Shown piece by piece: positions 4,621-38,798 of a stretch of 64,000 bases of DNA (position 1 is the first letter of the stretch; each line of letters opens with the position of its first letter). Source of the DNA: Isoetes taiwanensis. Taxonomy: Eukaryota > Streptophyta > Lycopodiopsida > Isoetales > Isoetaceae. A program made the position numbers and the translations under genes. The notes below the pieces were generated by a model. The model had not been told where the DNA came from and ran no database searches. It worked only from the letters and a program-made list of their open reading frames with translations. Location of the stretch: contig JAJEKV010000054.1 of assembly GCA_021234155.1 (NCBI GenBank), forward strand, positions 9,196,655 to 9,260,654, written 5' to 3'.

Positions 4621-4936
4621 GCACACTTCTTGCCGGATCTCAAGTTTCTTTGTCTTGGGATCTCAAGTTTGGGCTAGGATCTGGGCTTTATGGGCAGTTG
4701 GCTCAAGATTTGCATCTTTTGTTTGGGAGGACTTATAGTTTTTGCTAGCATTTGTGCAATTATTTGCACGGTTATTGATGCACACTTCTTGCCGGATCTC
4801 AAGTTTGCTGTGCCGGATCTCAAGTTTGGGCTAGGATCTGGGCTTTATGGGCAGTTGGCTCAAGATTTGCATCTTTTGTTTGGGAGGACTTATAGTTTTT
4901 GCTAGCATTTGTGCAATTATTTGCACGGTTATTGAT
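4621..4936 (+). repeat. Tandem duplication of a ~159-bp leader segment
   Basis: The segment from GCACACTTCTTGCCGGATC through GCACGGTTATTGAT occurs twice in direct tandem, at 4621-4779 and 4780-4936. The copies differ mainly by a few bases and a 2-bp length change near their starts. They lie between the primer site and the gag-like ORF of the copia element. Close identity points to a recent duplication. Confidence 0.9.
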
Positions 4937-4969
4937 AATCAAAAGCACATAGATCAATAGTAGGACTGT

Positions 4970-16264: not shown

Positions 16265-16269
16265 TCTGG

Positions 16270-16838
16270 TGTTTGGGGTCTGGGTTCGGGAACTCCTGCA
16301 AGACAGCCCTCTGTGAGGACCCGTGGATCTAACAGGAGAGTCCGGGGGACTATGTCACGCGGGATTTGCAAGAAAAGAACAAGAAGAAGAAAACGAAACA
16401 GAAAAGAAAAATGAGAGGAAAATGATAAGCTTCCTTGATATCAATGATGAACATACATGAGCTCTCGCAATCGAGAGAAGACTGAAGAGAGACAAGACTC
16501 AAAACTCATCTAGCCCTCATATGCTAGCTCTACTCATATATATAGTACAATGGCCTCTGGCCCAATATAGACACTCTGACTGATCTCGGTGCCGACTCCT
16601 GGAAGGAGGCCTGTTTTGCAGGAATGTTGGCGGTGCCTCTTGAAATGCCTAGAATCACGCTGACGCTGACGCGGGCGGTGACGGCCCATCACTTGTCTGA
16701 GCGGCGCCTCTTGATAGGCTGCTGCTTGGTCTTCTGCGGGGCCTTGGATGGCTGACCCGTGGTTGGATCATGGATCCTTGAGCTTGACCTGGTCCGTCAG
16801 ATGCATGAATAGTCCTGCATCAGAGGCACAGACTAACA
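16270..16838 (-). repeat. 3' LTR of the large gypsy element (569 bp)
   Basis: In minus sense it begins TGTTAGTC and ends CCCCAAACA. It matches 38229-38798 almost base for base over the first ~480 plus-strand bases. A few differences cluster between about 16,760 and 16,838. A TATATATAG run at 16536-16544, read on the minus strand, is a plausible TATA box for the element promoter. Confidence 0.93.
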
Positions 16839-16848
16839 CTCCCCCACC
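16839..16848 (-). other. Polypurine tract of the large gypsy element
   Basis: On the minus strand GGTGGGGGAG lies directly against the TG start of the 3' LTR. That is the expected place and composition for plus-strand priming in an LTR retrotransposon. Confidence 0.8.
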
Positions 16849-17009
16849 AAACAACACTCCGGGTGAAGAAAAAGGAGGAAGTGTCTCCGAGGGCTGAAGC
16901 CCTCGGTCCTGAAAGTGATCCTCGGGGGAGTGAGGACGGGCACCATTATGGTAATCGCTAATGAGATCTGGCGTTTTTTGAAGAGCAGGAGGAGTGTTGA
17001 GCCCAAGGG

Positions 17010-18300
17010 CGGGGATCAGCCAATGAGAAAATGAGAGCGCACCATGTCTTCAAGGGCCGCATGGGCTTTAAGAAACAAACCGGCACTCCATGAGGAGGTG
17101 AAAACCGGAGACCGAAAGCACCGACGCCGGCATTCGGATTGGCAAAAAAAAGATGGGCCGATTTGAGGAGTCGACGGGGAGGCTCTTGAGAGCAAAGACA
17201 CTAAACCCGGCCGGGCGGTGGGTGGATCAAGGGTCGGGGGAGGTGGCAAAGATGTCGCAAGAAGGTGTCGAGGCCATAAATGGCATCCTCGGGTCGTTGC
17301 CAACCACGCACATTGGCAATATAGATCCAGGTTTCAGTAGTGTCTAAGGTGGCATTATCCTCCCAAGCCGGATCGCGACGAGGCCGGGGGATCCCACCGA
17401 GATCCGGCCGAGATTTGAGGCGAGTGGATCCCGCTGCGGGCCATCCATGACCTTGGTCCAAGGGAAGACGCCAATCAGAAGTAAGAAACCCGGGGTGGAG
17501 GGGCACCCGGCAGAAGCATCGAGAGGGAGCGGTGCCCTGGGGCTGCTTGAGCCCGCTCGCCCGAATTCACCGACAAGGGCAGGATCTAGAGCCTTGCACC
17601 AACGATCCCACTCGGAAGCGAGGAGCCGAGAGTAAAACAGAGGGCTATCCCAACCCGTGGGAACTGTCTTGCTATCCAGAAGAGCACGCAGTTGATTGTA
17701 ACCGGCCAGTGGCTGCATGTAAACTTGTGCAAAGGGAAGATCCTCGGGATGTCCCAGATACTTCCTTATTTGTTGCAAATACCAGCTTGCCGGAGAGGCA
17801 AATGATGAGCAAGCTCCGAGATGTATTCTTGATGAAGAGCATGTGTCCGGGTCATGATTAGGCAGATAGGGGTTGTTATCCAAAAGCAACCATTGAAGTG
17901 TGGGGTCACCCTGAAAGTTCTGATGTGGCCCATCTCGAAATTTGTCCTGTGTATCTGCCAGATAGAAATCATGAAAAATGTATGCCATTGGCTGAACAAC
18001 TCGAAGGTGATCATATCCCGGATCGCCACGTTGAATGAGATCAAAGACTAAAAGGGCACAAAATAAACCTTTGTCTTCAAAGAGAGTTCAGGCCAGATCC
18101 GAAGAAAATCCTGCGTCTAGTGGGAACATCAACGAGACCATCAGCCGTATGCCACTTGGGGAAGAAAGAGGTGGCGGCGGGCCACCACATAGTCGATAAC
18201 TGGAAGGAATAGGGTAGTCAACAGGCAGGTTGAGAGCAATGGTAATGTAGCCTTCAAGTTTTGTGCGAGCGCGCATCGGCCAGGCCCGAATAGTTTGCAC
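17010..18300 (-). pseudogene. Second extra ORF of the gypsy element, frameshifted
   Basis: Minus-strand frames at 18300-18088, 17988-17344, 17506-17201 and 17303-17016 appear to be pieces of one former protein downstream of the 445-residue ORF. Readable blocks include AYIFHDFYLADTQDKF, LQWLLLDNNPYLPNHDPDT, WYLQQIRKYLGHPEDLPFA and ETWIYIANVRGWQRPEDAIY. No gag or pol motif is present and I recognise no family. It lies between the first extra ORF and the 3' LTR. Frame changes near 18,000 and 17,350 mean it cannot be made as a single protein from this copy. Confidence 0.5.
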
Positions 18301-18487
18301 TAGTCGTTGTTCGAGGTCACGGATCCCGTGGTCCTTTTCTAATAGGGGCGTGTCCGGTCACGGACCCGTTCGGAGAAGTGTTAACTGTGTGAGGAGGCTT
18401 GCCGGGGGCATTGAGTCGGCACGGCAATCTCAGCGTCATCAAGAAGTTTACATTTTTGAACCTCCGTAAGCTGATCTTGGAGGGATG

Positions 18488-19825
18488 TTAGTTTGAGAAG
18501 TCTGCGTGGAGAGCCGAGCCGTCAAAGAGGCAATGGGCGGCCACGCCAGTAAGGTGTTGAACTTGAGTACTGTAATTTTCACAAAGCTCGGAGTACAAAG
18601 CGTTGAGTTTAGCAATATCTTTCTCCTTGTCACTAAGGAGGGTGTCTTTGGACTTGTGTTGCTCCAATAAGGCCTGAAGTTCGGATTGAAGCTGAGCCTG
18701 TTGATCTGCAAGTAGGCTGGTCTGATCCTGTGCACTTTTGAGATCTATGCGGGCCTGTAAGAGAGCCCCATGCTTTTCTTGAAGTTGGGCTTCCAAAGTT
18801 TGAACTTGTGCGATTGCGACTTGAAGGTTACTGTCCAACCGATCCGAGGGCCGTCGAGGGCGGTGAACCCCATTCATAAGAGCTTCTTGGGATTCTTGTA
18901 ACTTGAGAACAAGGCGGCTTGAGCATCCTAGCGATCTCGATACAACAAATGACGAGGGTCTTTGTGGTGGTGGAGCCAGCTGTTGCCTTGTTTGTGACGT
19001 TTGGGACACATGATGAGAACTAGAGTGCTTGGTTTCTGTAGAGGAGGAGGAGACAGTGACATGCGTGTGTTGAAGGTTGACATGACCAGAAGAAGAAGGG
19101 CGTGAAGTGCCAACGTGATGAGTCTTAGGAAGGGACTGCTGAGTGGAATTTTGAGAATGAGAGTTTGTGGGAGGAAAGTAATGACAGATGAGGGCTTGAA
19201 GATGGCCTCCCACGGAAGTTTCAGAGGGAGAAGTGGCAGCCCGAAGACGGTCTACTTCTTGGAGAAGACGGTAGAACAGCAATTGGGGCCAATCAATGTG
19301 GTGGGTTGAGCGAGTAGCAGTGACTACGATATTATAGAAAGGTTTATTGATATGGGTGTTCTTGATAGAATACCCAAGGTACTTGCGCCACAGAAACTTA
19401 ACAAAAATTTCATGGGGCTTGTCAATATTTGTGAGGCGATGCACGTTTGCATGATAAGCAGGTGCACCAAACTCAGTGACATCAAGATCCTGTATGGCAG
19501 ACCAAGATAAACAAGGGGTTTGCAAAGGAATATGGAATACCTCAGAAATCAGGTGTTGAGTCAGCGAAATGGTGGTGCCATCGACCACTGTGGTGTATCC
19601 ATGCGGGCTGTTGACGATGTTAGCGATGAACTGCTTCAACTGGTCAGGATTTGGAGCCGGAAGTTCCATTTGAGAGAATTCGTAGAGTTTCGCGCGTTCT
19701 GCGACTGCACGATTCGGGCCAACAAGGGCTTCACGGAAAGTGGGCGTCAAGAAAGAGACAGACTCGAAAAGAGCCAGTTCCCTGGGAGCAGTAGCTTGAA
19801 GTGTAGGAAATTTTGGTGCAGCCAT
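18488..19825 (-). CDS. Intact 445-residue extra ORF in the gypsy element
   Basis: An uninterrupted frame starts at ATG 19825 in a strong context (GCCATGGCTG). It reads in the same sense as gag and pol, but lies about 12 kb beyond pol and about 1.6 kb before the 3' LTR. Residues about 1-230 form a globular domain with VVDGTTISLTQHLISEVFHI, a pattern like the plant transposon-associated or plant-mobile-type domains found as extra ORFs in large plant elements. Residues about 230-315 are Ser/His/Thr-rich and disordered. Residues about 340-425 are a coiled coil (VQTLEAQLQEKHGALLQARI, LQSELQALLEQHKSKDTLL). No zinc knuckle, protease, RT or integrase motif. It is intact while gag and pol are broken. 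Function unknown; a structural or accessory role is speculation. Confidence 0.7.
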   Translation of the reverse strand: MAAPKFPTLQATAPRELALFESVSFLTPTFREALVGPNRAVAERAKLYEFSQMELPAPNPDQLKQFIANIVNSPHGYTTVVDGTTISLTQHLISEVFHIPLQTPCLSWSAIQDLDVTEFGAPAYHANVHRLTNIDKPHEIFVKFLWRKYLGYSIKNTHINKPFYNIVVTATRSTHHIDWPQLLFYRLLQEVDRLRAATSPSETSVGGHLQALICHYFPPTNSHSQNSTQQSLPKTHHVGTSRPSSSGHVNLQHTHVTVSSSSTETKHSSSHHVSQTSQTRQQLAPPPQRPSSFVVSRSLGCSSRLVLKLQESQEALMNGVHRPRRPSDRLDSNLQVAIAQVQTLEAQLQEKHGALLQARIDLKSAQDQTSLLADQQAQLQSELQALLEQHKSKDTLLSDKEKDIAKLNALYSELCENYSTQVQHLTGVAAHCLFDGSALHADFSN

Positions 19826-20064
19826 GGCAAAGATTGGCGGAAAAGAACAGTGATTCCAAGCACACTCACCCCGGTTTTTGGTCCACTGTTGAAAACATCA
19901 GTTTTGGTAGGTCTACATGTCCTGTTTTCAAAGAATCCTACATGTGGATTTGTGAAGGTATGGTTTTGTTCGATAATGGTGTTCTTTTTTCAGTGGACTA
20001 AAACATCCACTGTTGTTTTGTAGTTTCTTCTATTGTGACATGTCATTTTATAATACAATCCACT

Positions 20065-20540
20065 GTAGGAAAGAGTACTTGAATTTCTACATGTCTAATA
20101 ATTCTATTGTCACATGTCTTTATAGATGTAGGAAAGAATATTTGATTCTCTACATGTCCTATACTTCCATTCACATGTCTTTATAGTAGTAGGACAGAGT
20201 ACTTTATTTGCTAAGGCATTGTAGGAAAGAATACATGAATTACGACATGTGTAATACTTCTATTGTCACATGTCTTTATAGAAGTCGGAAAGAATACTTG
20301 ATTCTCTACATGTCATATGCTTCCATGTCACATGTCTTTATAGTAGTAGGACGATGAGTACTTTATTTGCTAAGGCATTGTAGGAAAGAATACATGAATT
20401 ATGACATGTGTAATACTTCTATTCTCACATGTCTTTATAGAAGTAGGAAAGAGTACTTGATTCTCTACATGTCCTATCCTTCCATATCGGGTCTTTATAG
20501 TGGTAGGACAGAGTACTTGATTTGCTACATGTGATGCGTG
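20065..20540 (+). repeat. Three tandem ~160-bp units with internal sub-repeats
   Basis: Units start with GTAGGAAAGA at 20065, 20221 and 20380. Each contains about three shorter sub-repeats of the form 'guanine-rich AGGAAAGA...TACTTGATT...ACATGTC...CTTTATAG'. The third unit diverges at its end. The array sits inside the post-pol region of the gypsy element, just upstream in plus coordinates of the first minisatellite array. Confidence 0.85.
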
Positions 20541-20631
20541 CACGATCACATGTTCTTATACTAGTATTCCATGTAACACAAGTTACTTCAACTACTTCAA
20601 TTACTTAACACCTATTTTTGCATAACGTGGG

Positions 20632-22125
20632 CACCAACATGCCAAGGTGGCTCTACCATGCCACCTAGGCTCAAACATGCCAAGGTGGCTCCAACATGCC
20701 ACCTAGGCTCCAACATGACAAAATGGCTCAAACATGCCACCCAGGCTCCAACGTGCTCAAACATGCCACGCAGCTCCAACATGCCACCTATGCTCCAACT
20801 TGCCAAGGTGGCTCAAATATGCCACGGGCTCCCAACATGCCACCTAGGCTCCAACATTCCTAGGTGGCTCAAACATGCCACATAGGCTCAAACATGCCAT
20901 GCGGGGCTCACTTAAACTCCAACATGCCAAGGTGGCTCCAACATGCCACCTAGGCTCAAACATGCCAAGGTGGCTCAAACATGCCACCTAGGCTCCCCAA
21001 CATGCCACCTAGGCTCAAACATGCCGTGGCTCAAACATGCCAAGGTGGGCTCAAACATGCCACCTAGGCTCCAACATGCCACCTAGGCTCAAACATGCCA
21101 AGGTGGCTCAAACATGCCACGTGGGCCTCCACCATGCCACCTAGCCTCCAACATGCCAAGGTGGCTCACAACATGCCACCTAGGGCTTAAAATATGCCAA
21201 GTTGGCTCAAACATGCCACCTAGGCTCCAACATGCCACCGTGGCTCTAACCACGCCACCTAGGCTCAAACATGCCATGGGCTCCAACATGCCCGTGCCAA
21301 GGTGGCTCCAACATGCCACCTAGGCTCCAACATGCTCAAACATGCCACGCTGGGCTCTAACATGCCACCTATGCTCCAACTTGTCAAGGTGGCTCAAATA
21401 TGCCACGTGGGCTCCAACATGCCAAGGTGGCTCAAGCATGCCACCTGAGGGCTCCAACATGCCACCTAGGCTCCCAACATGGCAAGGTGGCTCAAACATG
21501 CCCACGTGGTCTCCAACATGCCACCTAGGCTCCAATATGCCAAGGTGGCTCCAACATGCCAAGGTGGCTCAAACATGCCACCCAGGCTCCAACGTGCTCA
21601 AACATGCCAAGGTGGCTCAAACATGCCGTGGGCTCCAACATGCCAAGGTGGCTCAAACATGCCACCTAGGCTCAAACATGCCAAGGTGGCTCAAACATGC
21701 CACCTAGGGTCGCGAACATGACAAAATGGCTCAAACATGCCACCTAGGCTCCAACGTGCTCAAACATGCCACGCGGGCTCCAACATACCACCTATGCTCC
21801 AACTTGCCAAGGTGGCTCAAATATGCCACGCGTGGGCTCCAACATGCCACCTAGGCTCCAACATTCCTAGGTGGCTCCAAACATGCCATCTAGGCTCCAA
21901 CATGCCACCCGGGGCTCAAACATGCCGGTGGCTCAAACATGCCAAGGTGGGCTCAAACATGCCACCTAGGCTCCAACATGCCAAGGTGGCTCAAACATGC
22001 CGTGGACTCCATAATGCCCGTGGGCTCCAACATGCCAAGGTGGCTCCAACATGCCATGCAGGGCTCCAACATGCCAAGGTGGCTCGGGCATGCCACCTAG
22101 TCTCAAGCATGCCACCTAGGCACCC
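20632..22125 (+). repeat. Minisatellite array A, unit about 18-19 bp
   Basis: Nearly every line is built from two alternating related units, CATGCCACCTAGGCTCCAA and CATGCCAAGGTGGCTCAAA. They vary by point changes and small indels, with interspersed variants such as CATGCCACGTGGGCTCC. Both units contain or nearly contain a short palindrome (CCTAGG, CCAAGG/CCTTGG). The array spans about 1.5 kb inside the gypsy element. Open frames across it (peptides such as NMPPRLQHAKVAQTCHLGS) are a by-product of the repeat, not genes. Confidence 0.95.
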
Positions 22126-22258
22126 CAAGTGGTGACATGGCATGCCAAAGCAAGGTCAAGTTTTGACTAGGCCAAAAAAAAACCAAAGATGTCCATCTTT
22201 GGTCTTTTCATTGGGTGATGTTGGCAAGTTTTAGGTGACATGGCTAGATGATGGTGAC
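22126..22258 (+). repeat. ~130-bp module bordering array A
   Basis: This stretch starts CAAGTGGTGACATGG and ends ATGATGGTGAC. It recurs as its reverse complement at 26119-26250 and again, same inverted sense, at 27921-28038. Shared landmarks are the gactaggcc, ccaaagatg and catgtcaccactt blocks. The copies border the minisatellite arrays, so array plus module behaves as a composite repeat unit. Confidence 0.85.
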
Positions 22259-22342
22259 ATGGACCTTGGATGTCTTTGCAAACAAGGCGGGGCACCTTTG
22301 GCCCCTTTCTTGTGAAGGGGAGTCTTGAAAGGTATATATGCT

Positions 22343-25180
22343 GGTGCATTTTCTTTTTTGCGTATCGTCATCTTGCACATCCACCGCCAAGATTTCACCT
22401 TTTTGAGACCGGATTTTTATCGTGCTTTTCTTTGTGTTTATGCTCAGGAAATTCATAATTAATGCATGGGGGGGGAAAAATCCTGGTTTTCAACCAGCCA
22501 GCTGGCTTGCCAAGTGGCCCGGAGAGTATAGGAAAATCCCACCATTATTTCGGATGAGTTTTAGACCCTCGATTTTTTATTGGGATGGCCGGCGTTGGCC
22601 CGACAAGGTTTAGACACGTTTTCGATTTTGGGGCATGGAGGAGGCCCGGTTGGCGATCCGACCTGCATGGCGTCGTCCGGAATCCATGCGAAATTACCCT
22701 ATGGGACAAGTTCCACGGCGAGTTTTCCTGGGGGATCAATCACTTACCCCTCACTAGGAGGTATGCAAACATCCACCTCCATGCCAATTGACTACAAGTG
22801 TGTAGTAAGCGACCTACTTTGGCATTTCTTGAGAGGGGGGTGGTCTTCGCCCCTAAACTTGGTCCCCTAGGTAATGGGGATGTTCGGGTCCATTGGCGGA
22901 GCCAGGTTCGATTTCGGTGAGTGAGGGTCCGGCCAGATCCTTAGCCCCGACTTGGACTAGCAACTGCGAGAACAAGATACTTGGGGTTCACCACGAGGCC
23001 CCTGGTAGAAGATTGAAGTGAGAATAGCAGCACTAGGACTGCTAGGTGGTATACATGAGACCACGGAGAAGCAAAGCTAGCTCCACTACCTAGTAGGGCC
23101 GTTAAGGCAGTGGTCTTCGGAAGGGGGTTGGCTCGGGCTTCGTCTCATGCCTCGCTTGTGCTTCCATTGCGGTGCATTTTCTCTTGCGTGTCGCGGCGTC
23201 ATCTTTGCACATCACATAAGATTTCACCTTTTTTGAGACCGAATTTTTATACATTGCTTTTCTTTGTGTTTATGCTCAGGAAATTCATAATTAATGCATG
23301 GGGCGGGGAAAAATCCTGGTTTTCAGCCGGCTGGCTTGCCAAGTGGCCCCGAGAGTATAGGAAAATCCCGGTATTTCGGATGAGTTTTAGACCCTCGATT
23401 TTTTATTGTGATGGCCACCGTTGGCCTTGGCGGGGGGTTTAGACCACGTTTTTGATTTTGGGGCATGGAGGAGGCCCGGTTGGCGATCCGACCTCGCCCG
23501 TCGTCCGGAACAATGAAATTACCCTAGGGGACAAGTTCCACGGCGAGTTTTCCTGGGGGATCAATCACTTACCCCTCACTGGGAGGTATTGGCATCCACC
23601 TCCATGCCAATTGACTACAAGTGTGTAGTAAGCGACCTACTTTGGCGTTTCTTGGGAGGGGGTGGTCTTCTGCCACGAAACTTGGTCCCCTAGGTAATGG
23701 GGATGTTAGGGTCCATTGGCGGAGCCAGTTCGGTTCCGAGTGGGGGTCCAGCCCGTCCCTCGGCCCCGGCTTGGATTAGCCCACGCAAGAACAAGATACT
23801 TGGGGTTCACCACGAGGCCTGGTAGAAGATTGAAGTGACAATAGGAGCACTAGGACTGCTAGGTGGTATACATGTGACCACCGGAGAAGAAAAGCTAGCT
23901 CCACTTCTCCGGTGGGGCATTCACCAGGCCGGTGGCCTCGAGAAAGGGGTTGGCTGGGAAGCTCGTCTCATGCCTCTGCTTGTGCTTCTATTTCGGTGCA
24001 TTTTTCTCTTGCGTGTGCAGCGTCATGTTGCATATCTGCCAAGATTTCACCTTTTTGAGACCGGATTTTTTATCGTGTTTTTTGTGTTTATGCTTCCGGA
24101 AATTCATAATTAATGCATGGGGCGGGGAAAAATCCTGGTTTTCAGCCAGCTGGCTTGCCAAGTGGCCCCGAGTATAAAGGCAAATCCCGGTATTTTGAGG
24201 GTGAGCTTTAGACCCTCGATTTTTGATTGGGATGGCCAGTTGGCCAGCGGCGAGTTTAGACCACGTTTTTCGATTTTGGGGCATGGAGGCCCGGTTGGCG
24301 ATCCGACCTCTCCACATCAAAATGCGGAAGCCAAAATTACCCTAGAGGACAAGTTCCACTACCCGGTTTTTCAGGGGGATCAATCACTTACCCCCACTAG
24401 GAGGTATTGACATCCACCTCCATGCCAATTGACTACAAGTGTGTAGTAAAGCGACCTACTTTGGCGTTTCTTGGAGGGGGTGGTCTTACGCCTTACGAAA
24501 CTTGGTCTCCTAGGTAATGGGGATGTTCGGGTCCATTGGCGAGCCCGGTTCTCGATTCGGTGGGGGTCCGGCCCGTCCTCATTGACTTGGACTAGCCTGC
24601 GAGAACAAGATACTTGGGGTCACCACGAGAATACGATAGAAGATCGAAAGTGAGAATAGCAGCACTAGGGACTGCTGGGTGGTATACATGTGACCCGCGG
24701 AGAAGCAAAGCTAGCTCCAGCGCCCGATGGGGCGTTACCAGGCCGGTGGCCTCGGGAAGGGGTTGGCTCGAGGCTTCGTCTCATGCCTCTGCTTGTGCTT
24801 CTATTGCGGTGCATTTTTCTCTTGCGTGTGCGGCGTCATGCACATCCATGCCAAGATTTCACCTTTTTCGAGACCGGATTTTTATCATTGCTTTTCTTTG
24901 TGTTTATGATCCGAGAAATTCATGATTAATGCATGGGGCGGGGAAAAATCATGGTTTTCAGCCAGCTGGCTTGCCAAGTGGCCCCGGCGTCTGAGGAAAA
25001 TCCCGGTATTTCGGGTGAGATTTAGACCCTCGATTTTTGATTGGGATGGCCACCGTTGGCCACGGCGGGGTTTAGACCACGTTTTTGATTTTGGGGCATG
25101 GAGGAGGCCCCGGTTGGCGATCCGACCTCTCCATGTCATCACGGAGCGAAATTACCCTAGGGGACAAGTTCCACGGCCCT
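22343..25180 (+). repeat. Higher-order tandem repeat, ~820-bp unit, ~3.4 copies
   Basis: The landmark GGTGCATTTTCT occurs at about 22343, 23171, 23995 and 24808; AATTAATGCATGGGG and GGGGCATGGAGGAGGCCCGG also recur once per unit. The first unit starts at the GGTGCATTTT landmark and the fourth is cut off near 25180. Copies are highly similar but carry many short indels, especially in G- or C-rich stretches. No protein domain was recognised in any frame. It lies in the middle of the gypsy post-pol region. Confidence 0.9.
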
Positions 25181-25199
25181 CTTGATCAGAGGAGCATCC

Positions 25200-26030
25200 C
25201 CAGAATGTAAACCCTATCAAACCCTAGGGTTTGCTAGGGTTTACATCTCAGCGTCAAGGCAGGAGACTAACACATCGAAACTTTGCATGGAGTTCTCTGT
25301 GTATGCTCACGGGGACCATGCGGGAGATGGGGTCAAATCCCCTAGCGGCATGCTTTTCCGGAACTCCCTTCTTTGGAAAGGGGCTTGTGAAGGGAGTCTC
25401 AGAAAGGTATCTTTTTGCTTTGGGAAATTTGGCTCTGTCTCCCGGTGCCATGAGGGTAATCCGGCCACGGGTATTCCGCGTCGGATCCACGGGCCCCCAC
25501 GGGTCGCCGGGCATCCCGAATGTAAACCCTATCAAACCCTAGGGTTTGCTAGGGTTTACATCTCAGCGATCAAGGCGGAGACTCACACATCGAAACTTTG
25601 CATGGAGTTCTCGTGTATGCTCGGGGACCATGCGGGAGATGGGGTCGAATCCCCCTGCCCCAGCGACATGCTTTTCGAGACTCCTTCTTTGGAAAGGGGC
25701 TTGTGAAGGGGAGTCTCGAAAAGGTATCTTTGCGCCGGGGAAATTTGGCTCTGTCTCCCGGTGCCATGAGGGTAATCCAAAGACGGGTATTCCGTGGGAT
25801 CACGGGCCCTCACGGGTCATCGGACATCCCAGAATGTAAACCCTATCAAACCCTAGGGTTTGCTGGGGTTTACATCTCAGCGTCAAGGCGGAGACTCACA
25901 CATCAGAAACTTTGCATGGAGTTCTCATTGTGGTATGCTCTGAGGGACCATGCTTTGGGAGATGGGGTCGAATCCCCTAGCGCCCAACATGATGATCGGA
26001 CTCCCCTTCTTTGGAAAGGGGCTTGTAGAG
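25200..26030 (+). repeat. Tandem ~315-bp units each with a telomere-like palindrome
   Basis: Three units are spaced 315 and 314 bp apart. Each opens with a 40-bp near-perfect palindrome (25206-25245, 25521-25560, 25835-25874) made of AAACCCTA motifs on one arm and TAGGGTTT on the other. After it come CATCTCAGCG, ACTTTGCATGGAGTTCTC and CTTTGGAAAGGGGCTTGT. The third unit is incomplete and runs into CTCTACAAAAATTTC. AAACCCTA equals the plant telo-box and telomere unit. Confidence 0.9.
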
Positions 26031-26118
26031 TTCTCCAAGATCCTTCTATTCTATCCCTTGCCAAACTCCTCTACAAAAATTTCAAAGGTTATCATATTTC
26101 TTGCATAAAGTCCTAGTC

Positions 26119-26250
26119 GTCACCACCATCTAGCCATGTCACCCAAAATTTGCCAACATCACCCAATGAAAAGACCAAAGATGGACATCTTTTCATTTTG
26201 GCCTAGTCAAAACTTGGCCTTGCTTACTTGACATGCCATGTCACCACTTG
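26119..26250 (-). repeat. Inverted copy of the ~130-bp module
   Basis: This is the reverse complement of 22126-22258 with scattered differences, recognised by gtcaccaccatctagcc, ccaacatcacccaatg and catgtcaccacttg. With 22126-22258 it makes an inverted repeat around the 820-bp and 315-bp arrays. Confidence 0.85.
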
Positions 26251-27920
26251 AAGTGCCTAGGTGGCATGCTTGAGCCTAGGTGGCATGCACGAGCCACCTT
26301 TGCATGTTGGAACCTGGGTGGCATGTTGGAGCCTCATTGGCATATGGAGCCACATTGACATGTTTGAGCTTGGCTCCAACATGCCAAGGTGGCTCCAACA
26401 TGCCACCTAGGCTCCAACATGCCACCTATGCTTCAAACATGCCACGTGGGCTCCAACATGCCACCTAGCATGCCACCCAGGCTCCAACATGCCACACGGG
26501 CTCCAACATGCCGCGTGAGGCTCCAACATGCCACATAGGCTCTAACATGCCAAGTTGGCTCCAGCGTGCCACCTAGGCTCCAACATGCCACCTAGCATGC
26601 CACCTAGGCTCCAACATGCCACCTAGACTCCAACATGCCACACAGGCTCCAATATGCCGCGTGAGCTCCCACATGCCACCTAGGCTCCAACATGCCACCA
26701 CGCTCCAACATGCCACATGGGCTCCAACATGCGACCCTAGCATGCCCACGGGCTCCAACATGCCACGTGAGCTCTAACATGCCACCTAGGCTCCAACATG
26801 TCAGGTGGCTCCAACATGCCACCTAGGCTCCAACATGCCAAGGTGGCTCCAACATGCCACCTAGGCTCCAACATGCCACCTACGGCTCCAAAGATGCCCC
26901 GTGGGCTCCAACATGCCACCTAGCATGCCACCTGAGGCTTCAACATGCCACGGGCTCCAACATGCCGCGTGAGCTCCAACATGCCACATAGGCTCCAACA
27001 TGCCAGGTTGGCTCCAACGTGCCACCTAGGCTCAAGCATGCCAAGGTGGCTCAAATATGCCACCTAGGCTCCAACATGCCACCAAGGCTTCAACATGCCA
27101 CGTAGGCTCCAACATGCCACCTAGGCTCCAACATGCCAAGGTTGGCTCCAACATGCCACCTAGGCTCCAACGTGCTCAAACATGCCAAGGTGGCTCAAAC
27201 ATGCCACGTGGCTCCAACATGCCATGTGGGCTCCAACATGCCAAGGTGGCTCAAACATGCCACCTAAGCTCAAACATGCCAAGGTGGCTCCCACATGCCA
27301 AGGTGGCTCCAACATGCCACCTAGGCTCGAACATGCCACCTAGGCTCAAACATGCCAAGGTGGCTCAAACATGCCACCTAGGCTCAAACGTGACAAAATG
27401 GCTCAAACATGCCACCTAGGCTCAAACGTGCTCAAACATGCCATGCTGGCTCCAACATGCCACCTATGCTCCAACTTGCCAAGGTGGCTCAAATATGCCA
27501 CGTGGGCTCCAACATGCCACCTAGGCTCCAACATACCTAGGTGGCTCAAACATGCCACCTAGGCTCAAACATGCCATGCATGCTCACTTAGGCTCCAACA
27601 TGCCACCTAGGCCCCAAACATGCCAGGTAGCTCAAACATGCCACCTAGGCCCCAACATGCCACCTAGGTGTTTGAGCCACCCGCAACATTGGAGCCCACG
27701 TGGCATGGTTGAGCCACCTTGGCATGTTGGAGCCCGGTGGCGTATTGGACCTAGGTGGCATGTTTGAGCTTCCTTGGCATGTTGGATCCTAAATGGCATG
27801 TTTGAGCCATATTGGCATGTTGGATGCCACGTGGCATGGTTGAGCCACCTTGGCGTGTTAGAGCCAAGGTGGCATATTTTGAGCCTAGGTGGCATGTTTG
27901 GGCCACCTGGCATGTTGCCG
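26251..27920 (+). repeat. Minisatellite array B, with strand switches
   Basis: It is built from the same ~18-19-bp units as array A. The first ~120 bp (to about 26370) and the last ~250 bp (from about 27663) run in the opposite sense (TAGGTGGCATG, TTGGCATGTTGGAGCC). The long middle part runs as CATGCCACCTAGGCTCCAA. The two switch points are internal junctions where unit polarity reverses without foreign sequence between. Confidence 0.93.
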
Positions 27921-28038
27921 TGCCATGTCACCCAAATTTGCCAACGTCCCCACGAAAAAACCAAAGATGTACATCGTTTCATTAGTGGCCTAGTCAAAAC
28001 TTGACCTTGCTTACTTAGCATGCCATGTCACCAATTGG
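27921..28038 (-). repeat. Third copy of the ~130-bp module
   Basis: It carries the same blocks as 26119-26250 in the same orientation (gccatgtcacccaaattt, ccaaagatg, cctagtcaaaacttga, catgtcaccaattgg), slightly shorter. It closes array B on the right. Confidence 0.82.
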
Positions 28039-31000
28039 AGGTCACATCATCTTTTCCATGCTCTTTGCTTGTATTGCAAGTGTAACGACATCAAGATCCC
28101 ATTATACCTCTAGCATTTATTTCCTATGGGTTTGTAGGCGACTTTATAAACAATGTTTCAAGGGTTATCAGGAGAATCGTTTTAGAAGTACAAAGGACCA
28201 AGGATTGATCATATCATGGCCTACAAGTTTACCTTGTATTATATATGGCGCCGTATTATTGGACATGCATATAACCTTCTCATATTCATTTCCTTTCCTC
28301 CTAGTTTGTTGAAGTGTTACAGGTTAGAAGCTCTCAATTTGGACTCACGAGATTCAACAACTCAAAAATTTAACAACTCCTTCACGAGTCGTCCATGTGA
28401 ATCAAAACAGGGGAAATGGAATTTCGTTCCATTATATGACTTAAGAAACTCGAAGTCCTAAGGGATAGGGCAATTGGGGGATTCTTAACTCCTTGTGGAT
28501 GGAATTCAACTATTGAAAATGGGTGAAAATAATCGTACCCTAGTTTTGATGATTCTTTCGCATGGTATTCCTTCCAGCGGAATCACCAATTAAGAAATTA
28601 CGTAGATGGAATCATTTGCCCAAACTATGCAGTAACACAGTAATTACGCATTTTGAGGGAAATTTCTTACCCTCTGAATGAATCCATAGGCACTCGAGCA
28701 GGTTTTTGGTTTGCATGGATGACCTCCTCTAATCCATCTTATTCTGACCCTCATACAAGTCATCCGAACCAACCTGGAGCTCAATCGACTGAGATATTCA
28801 TGCTCAAAGATTTGAGCAAAAACGCGAAAAAGGAATACCATGCGATGTAATCACCAAAACCCGGGGCGGATTATTTTCATCCCTTGAGAGTGTAAGCATG
28901 GGAATGCCCATGGCGACATGGCCATTAAGGTGCGAGCAACATTTGAATTGCAAAGTACATTATAGCTAAATGGGAGTTGGAGTTAGAATGTCTAGGAAAA
29001 AATAAAATAAAAATACTAATAGGGGCTATATTTTCCTTAGGATGAAAAACAACTTATTTTTTATACATGCATAGTAATTTGTCATTTTATTCAGCGGTAA
29101 AGATGAGCGGCGAGGATCTTGATCCACATCCTATGATTTTATTGGCTCGATAATTAATGGTTAGATTAAAGGCAGCCGAGATCAGCGTCACGGATCTTGA
29201 TCCCTCTCCTTTAATCTTATTGGCTTAGAGTAAAGGCACATTTAACCCTTGTAATTTTCCCGCCTAAGTTTTGTGCTTTTGTGCCCCTTTTACCTAGTTT
29301 TTGCCTCTGCGACTACAATTTTGAAGAAACACAGATCGGCCTTCGCATGGCTATGGCGATGGCGCTTTAATTTGGACTTCGCGGCTATGTAACCGCATGG
29401 CTATGGCGATGGCGCTTCCAGCAATCGTAGTGGCGCTGGCGCTGGACTTTTCTCCAGCTATGGCCGTAGCATCTGGTAGCTCTTCCTCAGATTCTACCTT
29501 TCTTGTTGCTTTTGATTTTTTTTGTTTCAAATCAATCACAAGATCTTGCTATTTATTTGAAACAGGGATTGTGATAGTCGTTGTGGCGCTGAGCGGTAGC
29601 CCTAAAAGAGCCAAGGCAGATCGGATCACGGCTTGCAAGATCTTTCTATGACGAGGTTTGGTAGAAAAACTCATCTAACAACAATCGATACAAAATAATT
29701 GTTCTAACTTGGCATGGCGAATTTTTCTTAGCGGATGGTCAATTTGTTCTATTGTGTGAATGGCGGTGGCTTCAAATATGGCTGTGGCTTTGGTTATCAA
29801 ACATATAAATTTTACGGATGCGCATATGGGCAGAAAATCTGCATACATTACGTGCTATGGCAATAAAAACCCTCTCCGGATGTGCGGTTGGGATAATATT
29901 TTGAAACTAGGTTTCAAGGCAATGATAAAGCTTCGATGAAGCAAACACATTTGGATAAGATTTCGGATAAGGTAGTAGCGGACGAAAATATGATGATGGT
30001 ATGTGCCCAATCAATCATGTTGTTGTAGCGGATGGATCTCTATTATAGCGGATGGATCTCTATTATGAAGCTTGTTAAATCTGGAAAAGAAAAGGGTTTC
30101 CTTGTGGCAAAATTATATAGGTAAAGGGTCTTCAAGAGCCCAAACAATTTGATACGCCATTCTATTATTAAATATTCTTGTTTATCTTTGATGAATCATT
30201 TGTAGCCATTTGTTTATCTTTGATGAATCAATAACATGGATCGAGTTGTTCTAAAATGAGCCTTCATGATTTGCGTAGTTTTAGTGGCCTATTCTTGCAA
30301 CTGCAATAACCAATGTTTAATAAAACTGCGCTTTTGCAATAACCAATGTTTAATAAGCGGGCCGCACATTTATTTCTTCTTAAACAATGTATGCCCGTGT
30401 TAATATATCATTAGCTAGGATAGCTAGGATAGGAGATATATTAGAAATGTGTTTTTTCTATGCGTTGTAATGGTGCATTTTTAATTTTGAAAGTATGCCA
30501 CGTGTTAATATTCTATTTGCTAAAATGCATATTAGCTTTTAAATCATAATATATTAACTTTTAAATTGTGGTCTATAATAATTTTTTTTTAATGTGTGCC
30601 ACGTGTCAACATTTGATTTGTTAGAAGATATATTATAAACAATACTTTATTTTTCCTACGTGTAGTAATAATGCTTTATTATTTAAAAAGTATGCCATGT
30701 GTCCATATTTGATTAGCTAGAATAATGTTTTATTATTTAAAAAGTATGCCACGTGTCAATATCTCATTAGTTAAATAACCACATTAGAAATTTACGTTTT
30801 TTCTACATGTTATAATATTACTTTTTATATGTCCTTATTTTAGGAAAACAATAGCTAAATTTCAATAACATATGTAGTGTTTTATAAATTAAAAAAAAGG
30901 CCATGCGTGATTTTTTTAATTTTGCAAAAACAACACTTGAAACGACGTGTCGTTATTGAGGAAAAGAACAGTTGAAAACATCATATTTCTATTTCCTACG

Positions 31001-32250
31001 TGTTCTTTTCTTTGTAGTCCTTTATTTCTAGTGTTGTAATTTAATTTTTCAGGTGTAGTAAAATTAAAACCTATGCGTGCGATTTTGCATGGTTCCACAA
31101 AAAACAACATCGAAGGAAAAAAGTACACGTTGACAAAAATTCACAAAAACTATGTTAATTTTTTCAGCGTGGAATTTTCCCGCCAAAAAACCACCTTGTC
31201 TCTTTTGTGCAAATCCGGATAAAAGCGACCCCGCGTGGACTTTTGGGACCATTTGGTGTTGTTTTGGCATAAAACAACACCTCAGTACAAGTAAAAACAA
31301 GCGTGGTCCAAAAATTGGGGTCGGTGTGAAGGCAGAGGACGAAGCAAAGAAGCGAGGACGAAGGCGCCAGAGAGACGAAAAAGGTTTAGGGGCGCCGCAA
31401 AGATGGGGAAGGGGCATGATAAGGGCTAAGCTGCAACCGTGGATGGTGCCAGTGTCGAGGAAGGATGCTAAGGGGCGATTGAGAGGCAAAAATTTGGCTA
31501 AGTCCCCAAACAACAAAGGGAGAAGCAATGAACGGTGGAGATGAGGCGGAGAGAATGAGGGGATGTGACAGTGGGCAAAGGACACACATTAATGTCCGAC
31601 GGGCGTGAAAAGAAGAAATGGCATTCAACTTTGGTAACTTCGAAGTGGGATATCATTAAAAGGAATGTGTCAAGGTACCATGGCTAGATATGCTACGGGA
31701 GAAAAGATTCTCATTTTAGAAAAAAACCTTGCATTGCAAAACACGTTGGCGATTGTTGTGATTGGTCCACATCGACAAGGAGTTCCTCGCTTGGCTATAT
31801 AAGACTAACCGAGTGAAGCAAAGGTATCCGATGGCGCCAAAGATGGTCGCCGCCGGGTTTGAACGAGGACCGCACTATGCCCACGTAACCGCCGGGAGTG
31901 GATTACCCGCAAGATGAATTGGCCGACCTCTCGGCGCCGCCACAATCGTGGCGTGAGAATGGACGGCTGGTGTGCGGGATGGTCAACATCCCGACCAAGA
32001 CCAACGGATGGAGGTGGTTCGCACCTTTTGGGATCCCTGAAGCGTAACCTCCTCTACCACCTCCTCCAAGATCACCTGCCCGAACCCGGGAGTAGAGGGT
32101 TTTTCCTCTTAGGTTTTAGTAGATGGGGCTCTGAGCCCATTTTTGTATATAGGGCGGTGCCCATATTTTAATTAGATGGGCCGTGCCGCATTTTGTAAAA
32201 ATATCCACTATAATATAAGATGCCGCCTTTCTAGTCACTGTGGTGTTTGC
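28039..32250. other. Low-complexity post-pol region of the gypsy element
   Basis: No protein family was recognised. Near 30,480-30,790 a degenerate AT-rich repeat occurs about four times, each carrying ATGCCACGTGTCAA followed by TTATTATTTAAAAAG-like sequence. At 29,340-29,420 GGCTATGGCGATGGCGCT is repeated. At 29,104 and 29,190 a short block (gatcttgatcc...ttattggct) is repeated. 31,790-32,200 is GC-richer, with TATATAAG at about 31,796 on the plus strand followed by an 85-codon frame; this could be an unrelated nested promoter or LTR piece, but no boundaries were found. Confidence 0.5.
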
Positions 32251-32259
32251 TTCTTGAAC

Positions 32260-33400
32260 TCAGACCGTTTTGTTGATTGTCGCTTTTACGGTGATGAAAT
32301 GTTTTGAGGCTAAAACCATTAACCAATGTAGGTAATGGAGTGCCATCTAACTCAGCCGGTTGGAAAACGCCGGGTCGAACCACTTGAATAATGTGATAAG
32401 GCCCAAGCCAATGAAACTTAAGTTTGCGGGAAAATTTTTGTACACGGAATCATAAAGAAGAACCAAATCGCCTTCTTTGAATGTTTTGTCTTGGACATTT
32501 GTCATGTAAAGATTTTTGCAACTATTTGTCCATGAAGGACTCGAATATAAGCATCCCTTCTAAGTTCATCCAACTATTTCCAACCGATAGACCCTTTCTT
32601 TGAGTGCGCGGTGGATTATTGGTAGTAGCTAGTTGAAAAGCGGAGTGTTGGAAGGATGTATTCAAAGCGGCATGAGAGCTTCGACCATAAACCAATTTGA
32701 AAGGAGTGTGTCCCCAGAGCAATTTTGAAACAAGTATTGTAGGCCCACGACAAAGTAGGAAGTTTTGTTTGCCGGTTTGTGCGTGAAGCGTCACAAATTT
32801 TCTTGAATGGTGACCGAGTTTTGTTGGTGCTTTTGCCAAACCATTACCTTGAGGATAGTAAGGTGTGCTCTTGTGATGATGTATCGGGGAGATAATCCGC
32901 CGGTTCCTTGATGGTATGATTGATAAAGTGGACACCACGATCAGCGACCAGCTCTCAGGGGCAGCCGAGGCAGCGTGATGATTTGTTGATAAAGGACCCG
33001 GCCGTGTTTGCTGCAGGTGTTATGCGGAAGTCACGCAAGCTTCCGCCCATTTAGTAAGCGAGTCGGTGAGAACGAATAGGACGTAACGCACGCGTGTGCC
33101 GCAGAGGGTCGATGGGTCCCACAAAATCCATTCCCATTTCTTTGAAGGGAAGCGGCGTGGCAACCGGCGCCAAGGGAAGAGCCGCCACGGGCGCCACCGC
33201 CCCACACGCCGGCAAGCATCACACGCGGGCGCGGGCGTGAGCGTCTTTGAAGAGCGTGGGCCAAAAATACCAAGCAAGAAGGATTTTTGCGTCGTGGTGT
33301 CACCATGAAAATGACCACCACCTAGCCCTTGATGAGCCTCTCGAACAATATCACGGTACTTCATGAGGTAGAAACACAGTCGCCGAAGGATGGTGTCCTT
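32260..33400 (-). pseudogene. Gypsy integrase, frameshifted
   Basis: The frame from 33364 shows an H2C2 zinc-binding start (EAHQGLGGGH followed by CDAC), then the beginning of the catalytic core with KKWEWILWDPS and VLTDSLTKWAEA. The frame at 32938-32522 continues with STPYYPQGNGLAKAPTK, the block around the third catalytic residue; here it reads LAKA where Glu is usual. At about 32,430-32,300 the sequence KFHWLGPYHIIQVV and AELDGTPLPTLVNGF marks the C-terminal GPY module. At least two frame changes interrupt it. No chromodomain was seen. Integrase following RT is the Ty3-gypsy order. Confidence 0.85.
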
Positions 33401-33566
33401 ACCCTTTTGTAGAGATGTCCCGCAACCATGGTGTAGTCACGGACCTGCGTGAGGAGAAATTGATGTCGACGGGATTGCCGCTTGGAGAGAGGCGTCGCCT
33501 TACGGTGGGAGAGCACCGTGAGGAAGTAACGCTGAAAATCATGGAACCAATGTGGTGTTGCCGTGA

Positions 33567-35034
33567 CTAAAAAAAGAGCCGAGCATCGGGAAAGGCGCCT
33601 CGAGACTCAGTTGAGGGATCATCTGCGGTGTATGCGTGAAAGATAATCCGGGGACGACATGAGATTTTTGCCGCCTTATGAAGCGATTTCAAAAAGGGCA
33701 AATTCTTGAGAAGAAGGACCCAACGAGCAATGCGGCCCGTGGGCGTGGACTTGTTGATCAGATAAAGGAGTGCTTGGTGGTCCACAAAGAACTTGATTTG
33801 ACTTCCCAAAAGGTAGTGAGGGAAGCGTTGAACACAGAAAATGAGACCCAAAGCTTCACGCCTGCGGGCGGAATAGTTGCGCCAATGAAATTGAGTTTTC
33901 GGCTGGCGTATCGATTTGGTTTGTCAGTGTGCGCATCATATTCTTGCGAAAGAACAGCTCCAATAGCAAACGCCGAGACATCGACATGAACATGAAAGGG
34001 TTTGTCCCATTGAGGAGGAACAAGAACCGGGGCCTGAGTAAGCAAAAGCTTCAACTGTTGGAAAGCAGCATCCGCCTGGGAATTCCAAGCCCAGGTGGAT
34101 TCGTCACCCGTGAGTTTATGAATGGGATCTGCAATGGCTGCTAGTCCAGGAATGAAGGTGGAGTAATAATTGACCTTACCCAGGAAAGAGCGTGTCTCCT
34201 TGATATTGGCTGGTGCTTGAGCCTTGAGCACACAACTGATTTTGGCAGGATCGGTGGTGATACCTGCTTTGCTGACAACGTGGCCTAACAGAACTCCTGA
34301 GGTGACGCAAAAGGTGCATTTCTCAGGATTGAGACTAATGCCTGACTCATCACATTTCTGGAAGACGAGTTCCAATTTATCCAAATGGTCACCATGGAAT
34401 CAGAGGCGAGAAATCATCTTGAAAAATTTGTAAGAAGGGATTTTCCTTCATGAAATCATGAAAAACTGAGAGCATGATGCGTTGAAATGTGGATGGAGAG
34501 TTTGATAAGCCAAAAGGAACCACCTTGTAGGCAAAAGTGCCCCACGGGGTGGTGAAAGTAGTCTTGAGTTGATCAGATTCTTTGATTGAGATCTGATTGT
34601 AGCCAGAAAAACCATCCATGAAGGAGTACATCTCATGTCCAAATGACCTCTTCGAACCACGGTTACGTGAAGGAAGTGAAAAATGATCACGCCCCGTGGC
34701 TTTGATTGAGTTTTCGGTAGTCCACATGAATACCGGATCTTACCATTGTGTTTGAGTGCAATGACAATAGGGCTCACCCATTCAGAATGTTTGACCTCAT
34801 AGATCAAACCTGCAGCAAGGAGCTTGTCAATTTCTGCCTTGACGCGATCACGGTAGTTGGGGTTGAGCCGGTACTGTCGTTGCTAAACTGGACGTGCATC
34901 AGACTTGGTAGGAATGGTGAGTTCCCCAAGCTTTTGTTGATGCCGAAGATCTCTGTAGCTCGGTAAAATGTGTTTGAATTTTTTAAGCGGTGGACGCCCC
35001 TGATACGATAAGGGGTAGGAAGATTGGCAAACAA
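33567..35034 (-). pseudogene. Gypsy reverse transcriptase and RNase H, frameshifted
   Basis: RT begins near 35,030 and continues in a second frame with GLIYEVKHSEWVSPIVIAL and MYSFMDGFSGYNQISIKE. Then comes FGLSNSPSTFQRIM. The catalytic block reads FLQIFQDDFS rather than the usual Y-x-D-D, so it is altered or frame-disturbed. The following 208-residue frame (34384-33758) holds CTFCVTSGVLLGHVVS, FLGKVNYYSTFIPG and the RNase H start FHVHVDVSAFAIGAVLSQ. The frame from 33851 continues RNase H (DHQALLYLI). Four or more frames are used, so the protein cannot be made intact. Confidence 0.88.
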
Positions 35035-35342
35035 TGCGCGACAAAGCTAATTGTTGCCCACGCCCACGATCACCGACTTCGTGGAGTCTGAATATGAGGT
35101 ATCACTTCTGTGTCCTGGACAATATGTGCAGGTGGTTGAAGCATAACAGGATGCGTGGCACTCTGCGTGGTGAAAAAGAGAGGTTGCTGAGTTTCATCCA
35201 GCAGAGGTTGCTTCATGACAGCGGCGTGGGGACAGCGAAGTTGCGGGGAGGTTCAAGATTCGCAAAGTGATCAACACGTTGGATTCTATTGCAAGGAGCC
35301 AGGTAAAGGGTCAAAAACAAAGCGCCCACAACCGGTCCCCGA

Positions 35343-35943
35343 TCAAGAGTCATTTCTCCCAAGGATCGATATGGCCGGGTAGGATGACGAGGCGCACTTC
35401 GCGGTGGAGCCTGAACGCGTGATAAATATTCCCGAGCTTCCCTTTAATCTGTGGTCCGAGAGAGAGGGTTCAGCATGTTCAACGTAAATGATCTTGCCCG
35501 CTTGTAAGTCCATGGTGGCATTGAGGTGACCATCGTGATGACCAACCGATCCGCGGGCCCAAGAATGGATACTCTTGGCTCGGCGGAGAAAAGGTCGGCC
35601 AACCAACATTTCATAATCACCAGGATCTTCTCCATCCTTCCAAACTCCAAATTCCATTGGGAATCGGAGTTCACCAATGTTGATGTGAAGAAGAGGCGTG
35701 ACGCCTTGAGGTCTGGTGATATGGCCATTAGCAAACTTGATGTCATATGGGGAGCCCGAAAAGAGTTGTTTGATGCCCATTTGTTTCAAGGAGTTTATCC
35801 GTGATGAGATTGACTGCGCTACCTCCGTCTATTTGTACATGGTTGACTTGCTGGTTACCCACCGTGGCATGGACCGTGGGTGTAGAGGTAATGACCCCAA
35901 CTAAAACGGTTGGGGAGTGGTAATCGGTCCTTGAGAGCAAGAC
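35343..35943 (-). pseudogene. Gypsy aspartic protease region
   Basis: The frame 35940-35743 carries QIDGGSAVNLIT, the aspartic protease active-site block with DGG in place of the common D[ST]G. The next frame (35789-35343) carries the second half with DYEMLVGRPFLRRA, matching the usual 'ILGRPFL' block. The two halves are in different frames, so a frameshift lies near 35,750. It overlaps the 3' end of gag by about 90 bp. Confidence 0.82.
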
Positions 35944-38181: not shown

Positions 38182-38211
38182 GGCGACAGAAGAAAGTAGG
38201 ATTGAATCAGA

Positions 38212-38227
38212 CCCGGCAGCGGCGACA
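38212..38227 (-). other. Primer-binding-site-like sequence (tRNA-Asp type)
   Basis: One base inside the 5' LTR the minus strand reads TGTCGCCGCTGCCGGG. The common plant gypsy primer site TGGCGCCGTTGCCGGG, complementary to tRNA-Asp, differs at two of these sixteen positions. Position and similarity support its role; the tRNA identity is inferred. Confidence 0.65.
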
Positions 38228-38228
38228 G

Positions 38229-38798
38229 TGTTTGGGGTCTGGGTTCGGGAACTCCTGCAAGACAGCCCTCTGTGAGGACCCGTGGATCTAACAGGAGAGT
38301 CCGGGGGACTATGTCACGCGGGATTTGCAAGAAAAGAACAAGAAGAAGAAAACGAAACAGAAAAGAAAAATGAGAGGAAAATGATAAGCTTCCTTGATAT
38401 CAATGATGAACATACATGAGCTCTCGCAATCGAGAGAAGACTGAAGAGAGACAAGACTCAAAACTCATCTAGCCCTCATATGCTAGCTCTACTCATATAT
38501 ATAGTACAATGGCCTCTGGCCCAATATAGACACTCTGACTGATCTCGGTGCCGACTCCTGGAAGGAGGCCTGTTTTGCAGGAATGTTGGCGGTGCCTCTT
38601 GAAATGCCTAGAATCACGCTGACGCTGACGCGGGCGGTGACGGCCCATCACTTGTCTGAGCGGCGCCTCTTGATAGGCTGCTGCTTGGTCTTCTGCGGGG
38701 CCTTGGATGGCTGACCCGTGGTTGACTGCGGATCCTTGAGCTTGACCTGGTCCGTCGTATGCATGAATAGTCCTGTACCAGGAGGCACAGGACTAACA
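38229..38798 (-). repeat. 5' LTR of the large gypsy element (570 bp)
   Basis: It has the same sequence as 16270-16838 with a few differences clustered near its upper end. In minus sense it begins TGTTAGTCCTGTGCC and ends CCCAAACA. The near identity of the two LTRs implies a fairly recent insertion, or later gene conversion. Confidence 0.93.
38495..38503 (-). promoter_or_regulatory. TATA-like element in the 5' LTR
   Basis: On the minus strand CTATATATATGAG lies about 300 bp from the LTR start and about 270 bp before its end, a normal place for the U3/R border. It would drive the element transcript toward gag. Confidence 0.5.

Follow-up and report, generated by a model that had tools for sequence, protein, structure and literature searches.

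An ATG-to-stop frame of 445 codons (18488-19825, minus strand) is found in a retroelement of Isoetes taiwanensis. The earlier note on this DNA placed it on the gag-pol strand, between the remnants of pol and the 3' LTR, and the mapped coordinates bear this out. The locus raises the question of whether such a frame is a gene of the element, a captured piece of the host genome or a relic of decay that codes for nothing. Its length exceeds chance, i.e. none of 100 random 64-kb sequences with the dinucleotide make-up of the ORF reached 445 codons, the longest frame being 281. A comparison of related copies shows that the frame is the truncated front of a longer gene, here called ORF3, which is the third gene of an abundant Ty3/gypsy family.

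The carrier element

The window, i.e. the whole stretch of 64,000 nucleotides that was analysed, contains the following features of the element.

16269..16838, minus strand: 3' LTR (self-BLAST)
16689..16838, minus strand: U3 segment of the 3' LTR that matches the last 47-57 codons and the stop of ORF3; frame broken in the window copy
16839..18487, minus strand: rest of ORF3 in the window copy, split among at least two frames (18091-18357, 17347-18087, others)
18488..19825, minus strand: reported frame, truncated 5' part of ORF3, with N-terminal domain, Ser/His/Gln-rich linker and coiled coil
19861..31328, no strand assigned: insertion of 11,468 bp with CACAC-type terminal inverted repeats and a 3-bp target duplication, CTT
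31329..32300, minus strand: spacer of about 0.9 kb between pol and ORF3, largely non-coding; the coordinate of the pol end is approximate
32350..35828, minus strand: pol (protease, RT, RNase H, integrase), with RVT_1 and RT_RNaseH matches; split among several frames in the window copy
35858..38181, minus strand: gag, ATG at 38181, with a Retrotrans_gag match; at least one frameshift in the window copy
38228..38798, minus strand: 5' LTR, 571 bp (self-BLAST), 98.1% identical to the 3' LTR

Judged by the LTRs, gag and the order PR-RT-RH-INT, the carrier can be classified as a Ty3/gypsy LTR retrotransposon, with the reservation that the protease matches, seen in sibling copies, are below the cut-off. 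The sibling pol frames show the succession RT-RNaseH-H2C2-rve. The two LTRs of the window copy differ by a K2P divergence of 0.0179 (9 transitions, 1 transversion, 3 gap columns). In gag there is an open stretch of 679 codons from stop to stop (37894-35858; Retrotrans_gag E 2e-12), and the ATG frame derived from gag, with 552 codons (35855-37513), is longer than the reported one, which therefore is not the only intact ORF of the element, as had been thought. A site at 38209-38228, after the 5' LTR, resembles what we take to be the complement of the tRNA-Asp 3' end; such a primer-binding site would fit a non-chromovirus.

No chromodomain was found in the one sibling integrase frame that was scanned to its end (L009), which gave only a weak SH3_Tf2-1 match. 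By the usual mark of the chromoviruses, a chromodomain at the integrase end, the carrier would not be counted among them. Pfam revealed no second RNase H in the sibling gag-PR-RT and RT-RH-INT frames, a search that is not a dedicated test; an additional RNase H of the Tat type in a separate ORF is described for some structures in a portion of PMC10508981. The non-chromovirus elements Selgy (Selaginella) and Phygy (Physcomitrella) are described in the relevant part of PMC6317226 as short, with a polyprotein that spans nearly the whole internal part. The carrier does not fit the Selgy type, since ORF3 takes up about 3 kb between pol and the LTR.

What sets pol so far apart from the ORF in the window copy is not native to the element; it is the 11,468-bp insertion with its CTT duplications, which sits just upstream of ORF3. 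The matches of all 20 siblings (L009-L028, selected by similarity to the ORF) to the window begin at 19860 or 19854 and never earlier. In the seven siblings compared with the whole window the alignment runs to 31329-31391 and resumes at 19860 or 19854, and in the two closest ones (L009, L010) the two flanking matches overlap by three bases. The inverted ends are alike in 23 of their first 30 bases, and large minisatellite arrays with a 19-bp unit lie between them in both orientations. The end of the insertion belongs to a repeat family: the 40 matches that were scored out of 1,112 candidates, the window included, are all 81-100% identical. Six ORFs of the insertion gave no Pfam match at E 0.01. 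By its ends and the 3-bp duplication it may be a non-autonomous DNA transposon of the CACTA type.

The full length of ORF3 and its end in U3

The reported frame had been described as intact. In the siblings L009-L028 the frames continue, with open stretches over the ORF position of up to 817 codons from stop to stop, although, as judged by eye, the L020 frame begins and the L028 frame (P0002) ends with residues that lie outside the frame of the family. When the N domain (224 residues) was used as query in a protein search, the best 150 of 6,205 candidates all matched it, at 80-100% identity. In 133 of these 150 the N domain is free of stops, and eight lie in open frames of at least 1,000 residues (hand counts); as the best-scored copies, the 150 are biased toward intact ones, and they are counted irrespective of their position relative to pol.

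The distal 1.4 kb of the eight long copies (one of them L043) was compared. In seven the frame stays open through the polypurine tract and reaches its stop 47-57 codons into the 3' LTR, so that ORF3 has 1,043-1,062 residues, counted from the start of the N domain to the stop. The last residues are KRRRSDK in six copies and KKRRLDK in one, and the LTR part varies in length; the eighth copy (L052) is not open at the LTR end. Three of the first 20 siblings (L009, L017, L025) are also open across the start of the LTR to the same end, and the remaining ones are broken there or are without the LTR part. It is thus well supported by the aligned copies that the end of ORF3 is encoded inside U3 of the 3' LTR. 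In the window copy the polypurine tract, at about 16839-16848, lies within the remainder of ORF3. Vertebrate retroviral accessory genes such as nef also run into U3. They resemble ORF3 as 3' genes that end in the 3' LTR; this is an analogy of layout only, and no sequence relation is claimed.

The window copy is broken by comparison, i.e. about 20 residues ahead of its stop it departs from the frame of the family, and two short patches farther upstream are out of frame as well (both by eye). The pieces at 18091-18357 and 17347-18087 appear unrelated, yet they match in-frame parts of the sibling ORF3 protein. The start is well preserved: the context CATGGC, rated as strong in the earlier note, is the same in all 17 copies aligned at this point, i.e. 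the window copy and 16 siblings.

The whole ORF3 thus comprises about 1,045 residues: a conserved N domain of about 215 residues, a Ser/His/Gln-rich linker, a coiled coil at about 300-520, another orphan region from about 520 to 990 and finally a basic tail, about 50 residues long, from U3. The earlier division into a globular domain, a linker and a coiled coil fits the visible part; the coiled coil is not the C terminus, as about 520 residues follow it in the family.

The ORF3 protein and its possible role

The N domain was aligned in 15 copies that are open there (L011, open with a shifted start, was excluded), and 13 of the 14 other copies are 89-97% identical to the window, L030 being 75% identical. 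It gave no match above chance in Pfam, NCBIfam, PHROGs and PDB sequences, and the Pfam profile search of the N-terminal part, proposed earlier as a check, agrees with the earlier remark that the ORF could not be matched. Outside the coiled coil the chance-level matches included Ribosomal_S16 (E 0.16, N domain) and phrog_13048 (E 0.047). The C-terminal 486 codons of L017, searched in the same four libraries, gave nothing beyond HTH_23 (E 0.22). Relatives in viral contigs were found neither by tblastn with P0002 nor with the N-domain alignment, and hhalign with very shallow profiles detected no relation of the N domain to the element's own gag or to the C-terminal region. An AlphaFold2 model of the window N domain alone, from a single sequence, had a mean pLDDT of 39, too poor for use. 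Residues 301-520 have a hydrophobic periodicity of 3.5 residues, as high in none of 1000 shuffles, and match coiled coils of the SMC, Rad50 and FPP type, all below the cut-off. The middle of ORF3 is accordingly predicted to be a coiled coil.

The Pfam families Transposase_32, PMD, Transposase_28 and ATHILA had no match up to E 10 in the ORF3 frames. The same four were silent in the genome, but they were silent in the control genomes as well, so their absence from the genome is not established. The ORF3 stretch VVDGTTISLTQHLISEVFHIP recalls PF20167, which we take to be an impression only.

We propose, tentatively, that ORF3 encodes a nuclear accessory protein of the element. Its translation would begin at an ATG of its own, on a sense RNA that is spliced or subgenomic, as is suggested by the largely non-coding spacer that separates ORF3 from pol. 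Such RNA is reported for Bagy2 in a review (PMC7264820). No splice acceptor kept in all copies was seen, by eye, in the aligned 5' flank of ORF3. The coiled coil suggests that the protein may oligomerise, and the basic C-terminal tail, whose nuclear localization signal is a motif judged by eye, would bring it to the nucleus. There it could act for the element in the import of the integration complex, in tethering or in countering silencing, and the evidence does not choose among these. Nuclear and regulatory roles have been suggested for antisense extra ORFs (PMC7264820, in part).

The last of these functions may be taken as an alternative to import and tethering, i.e. ORF3 could be an anti-silencing factor directed against host DNA methylation or RNA silencing. 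A protein that is soluble by hydropathy, probably oligomeric and furnished with a basic tail is consistent with this, but the libraries searched gave no domain match to known anti-silencing proteins, and we consider such a specific function unlikely, if less so than the other alternatives. Considerably less probable is a function of ORF3 in transfer from cell to cell or by particles, as an envelope-like protein of the sort put forward for Athila and SIRE. Its place and strand are those of env-like ORFs (PMC7264820, in part) and it has a central coiled coil, but it ends in the basic KRRRSDK and has no match to the ATHILA family of Pfam. Moreover, no segment of transmembrane grade was detected on a simple hydropathy scale, used in place of a dedicated predictor, in the window ORF and four sibling frames that cover the protein: the highest 19-residue value was 1.53, and this maximum falls in the out-of-frame end of L028. 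An envelope role is unlikely for this reason, and ORF3 would not be env-like in the sense of having a transmembrane segment.

Additional ORFs that lie in sense orientation between pol and the 3' LTR are already known as a kind, and the comparisons that follow draw on parts of the papers cited. The sunflower Athila 14 3'aORF(+) has 487 residues, a partial similarity to Transposase_32/PF20167 and a predicted NLS (PMC11728184). The Athila sense extra ORFs (aORF-3S, "env-like") resemble ORF3 in strand, in their place from pol to the 3' LTR, in their Ty3/gypsy carrier and in the predicted NLS. Unlike the sunflower ORF, ORF3 has about 1,045 residues, a coiled coil, no PF20167/PF03078 match and an end inside U3. 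The Retand/Grande extra ORFs (Transposase_28/TRP28) are antisense to gag-pol, with a suggested regulatory or nuclear role (PMC11963269). They share with our element the long region from pol to the LTR and the suggested nuclear/regulatory role, but ORF3 is sense, and PF04195 was found neither in ORF3 nor in the genome (control genomes silent too). The extra ORFs of Ogre, likewise in a non-chromovirus Ty3/gypsy element, carry the plant mobile domain PF10536 (PMC6317226), which was not found in ORF3 or the genome either (controls again silent); an additional RNase H, a further point of the Ogre comparison, had no match in the pol frames scanned here. In the parts of the literature compared we found no plant retrotransposon gene that ends inside U3, which is not proof of absence. 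We would put the chances at about even that this lycophyte Ty3/gypsy family has evolved a large accessory gene which extends over the polypurine tract into U3, has a nuclear-targeting tail there, is convergent with retroviral 3' genes and contains two protein regions of unknown fold.

Distribution of ORF3 in the family

Copies chosen by similarity to the ORF are bound to contain it, so a sample was also drawn by pol: 40 of 3,519 candidates from a DNA search with the RT-INT region were scored, and a 2.5-kb piece downstream of pol was examined for 16 of the 39 places other than the window. ORF3 follows pol at the expected place in 13 of the 16. In 12 of these the longest match has at least 560 nt with 76-90% DNA identity, and in L042 only the first 72 nt of ORF3 are present. 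The exceptions are L029, which is rearranged, L032, which is without ORF3, and L036, in which the piece ends before the place. By these data ORF3 qualifies as a sense extra ORF, also named aORF-3S or eORF-3'F, in the common sense, i.e. at least 250 codons downstream of pol in most copies of a family. Absence of the ORF from all other members, named earlier as the observation that would count against it, is not what we see.

The same counts bear on the suggestion that the 445-codon frame is a host gene, or a fragment of one, recently captured in the window copy alone. The ORF is without similarity to known retroelement proteins, as a captured gene might be, but 13 of the 16 copies chosen by pol have the same frame downstream of it, the N domain is present in all 150 scored matches (with the above caveat as to position), and constraint persists out to a dS of about 0.9 (see below). 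A recent capture as stated is thus refuted and we regard it as very improbable; an old capture of a host gene is possible.

The 40 nearest copies by ORF3 and the 40 nearest by pol largely differ, with three listed places in common besides the window. This small overlap hints at recombination between subfamilies.

Selection on ORF3

dN/dS was calculated by simple pairwise codon counts without a tree, and the copies are not independent of each other. Over the 985 codons of ORF3 before the LTR the value was 0.36 (21 copies). By parts it was 0.27 in the N domain (95% interval 0.20-0.37), 0.37 in the linker, 0.34 in the coiled coil, 0.46 in the part 521-640, and 0.34 and 0.43 in the C-terminal parts; in shifted frames the parts before the LTR gave 0.73-1.47. 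The last 337 codons of gag had 0.40, the 649-codon RT-RH-INT frame 0.30 and the integrase 0.36; for the spacer the values were 1.00 and 0.66 in two parts, the frames tried there spanning 0.60-1.02. These gag, pol and spacer values are from 16 copies, i.e. the window and 15 of the 20 siblings, since L015, L016, L020, L023 and L027 were excluded as short or unmatched upstream. L022, whose 3' part is missing, was retained with gaps in the dN/dS and homopolymer counts and dropped from the CG count. From these values ORF3 is under purifying selection, similar to gag and pol.

We also considered a second coding frame in the spacer. L028 has a 175-codon open stretch there (4664-5188), stop-free in 11 of 16 copies; its dN/dS was neutral in its own frame (1.00) and 0.60 in the +1 frame, and the candidate was dropped.

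The differences between copies are of two kinds. Those in the N domain that are common to at least two copies concentrate at third codon positions (23/21/62 for the first, second and third position), whereas those private to single copies do not (42/31/36; Fisher p 0.0002). The contrast is also significant in the linker (p 0.044) and the L020 part (p 0.008) and not significant in the coiled coil, the part 521-640, the last C part and the tail (p 0.21-0.82). When 11 of the 13 pol-chosen ORF3 copies (not L040 and L042) were added, giving 32 copies, the N-domain dN/dS was 0.48 where dS is below 0.1 and dropped to 0.15 at a mean dS of 0.89; residues 216-425 stayed at 0.34-0.53 throughout the depth range. 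The contrast between shared and private changes, together with the fall of dN/dS with depth, is the pattern of a gene that selection maintains in the replicating lineage and that is released in each inserted copy.

In the U3 tail the dN/dS was 0.43 (0.22-0.78) against 0.99 and 1.03 in the shifted frames, in ten tails selected because they are open. The signal was weaker, 0.58 (95% interval 0.35-0.95), with shared sites at 18/16/21, in the unselected copies, of which 20 out of 21 possess the tail. The U3 tail is therefore probably coding.

The selection suspected earlier is thus seen, at the level of the family, but not for the reason that had been given: the frame was thought to be conserved against a broken gag-pol, whereas ORF3, gag and pol are under similar constraint, the ORF3 of the window copy is broken too and the gag frame is longer. 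Neutral decay in sibling copies, which the earlier note wished to see checked, does occur among the private changes; the shared ones speak against it, most clearly in the N domain. Most sampled copies, the window copy included, are broken somewhere, and indels show no bias to multiples of three, which would agree with a frame that codes for nothing and that such decay has left open by chance. The selection tests, with 0.27-0.46 for the true frame and 0.73-1.47 for the shifted ones, refute this reading, the random sequences described above also speak against it, and its probability is practically nil.

We are highly confident of what the compared copies show of the gene, its extent, the purifying selection on it, the relaxed private changes and the well-supported end encoded in U3; the explanation as a whole, i.e. 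a third gene with a nuclear accessory protein, we hold to be rather probable. The family is a clear case of its kind: many copies carry the sense ORF of about 1,045 codons, its constraint is like that of gag and pol, and its end is LTR-encoded. An end in the LTR also ties the evolution of the accessory protein to that of the promoter (U3).

Frameshifts and other features of the window

Many copies are frameshifted in ORF3, as in pol. Of the indels common to at least two copies, few have a length divisible by three (8 of 142 in ORF3, 2 of 85 in pol), and they are therefore no sign of a kept ORF3 frame. Homopolymers are not strongly enriched at the breaks, in counts that are inflated by the gap of L022. 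A CG lies within 4 nt of 48 of the 67 1-nt deletions in pol and of 66 of the 111 in ORF3, but of only 0.23-0.32 of background positions; in L009-L028 such deletions are thus near CG about two to three times as often as the background, recurrent ones included. The Isoetes taiwanensis assembly is, according to the section of PMC8566536 concerned, a Nanopore draft polished with Illumina reads. As 1-nt deletions lie near CG, some breaks, perhaps those of the window copy too, may be assembly errors, and since the draft is Nanopore-based, such errors could arise from basecalling at methylated CG. If so, the elements would look more broken than they are.

Two further retroelement pieces are present in the window. 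The one at 4970-6292 (plus strand) has a weak copia gag match below the cut-off, and the one at 52866-54014 (minus strand) has a copia RT (RVT_2) with SH3_retrovirus.
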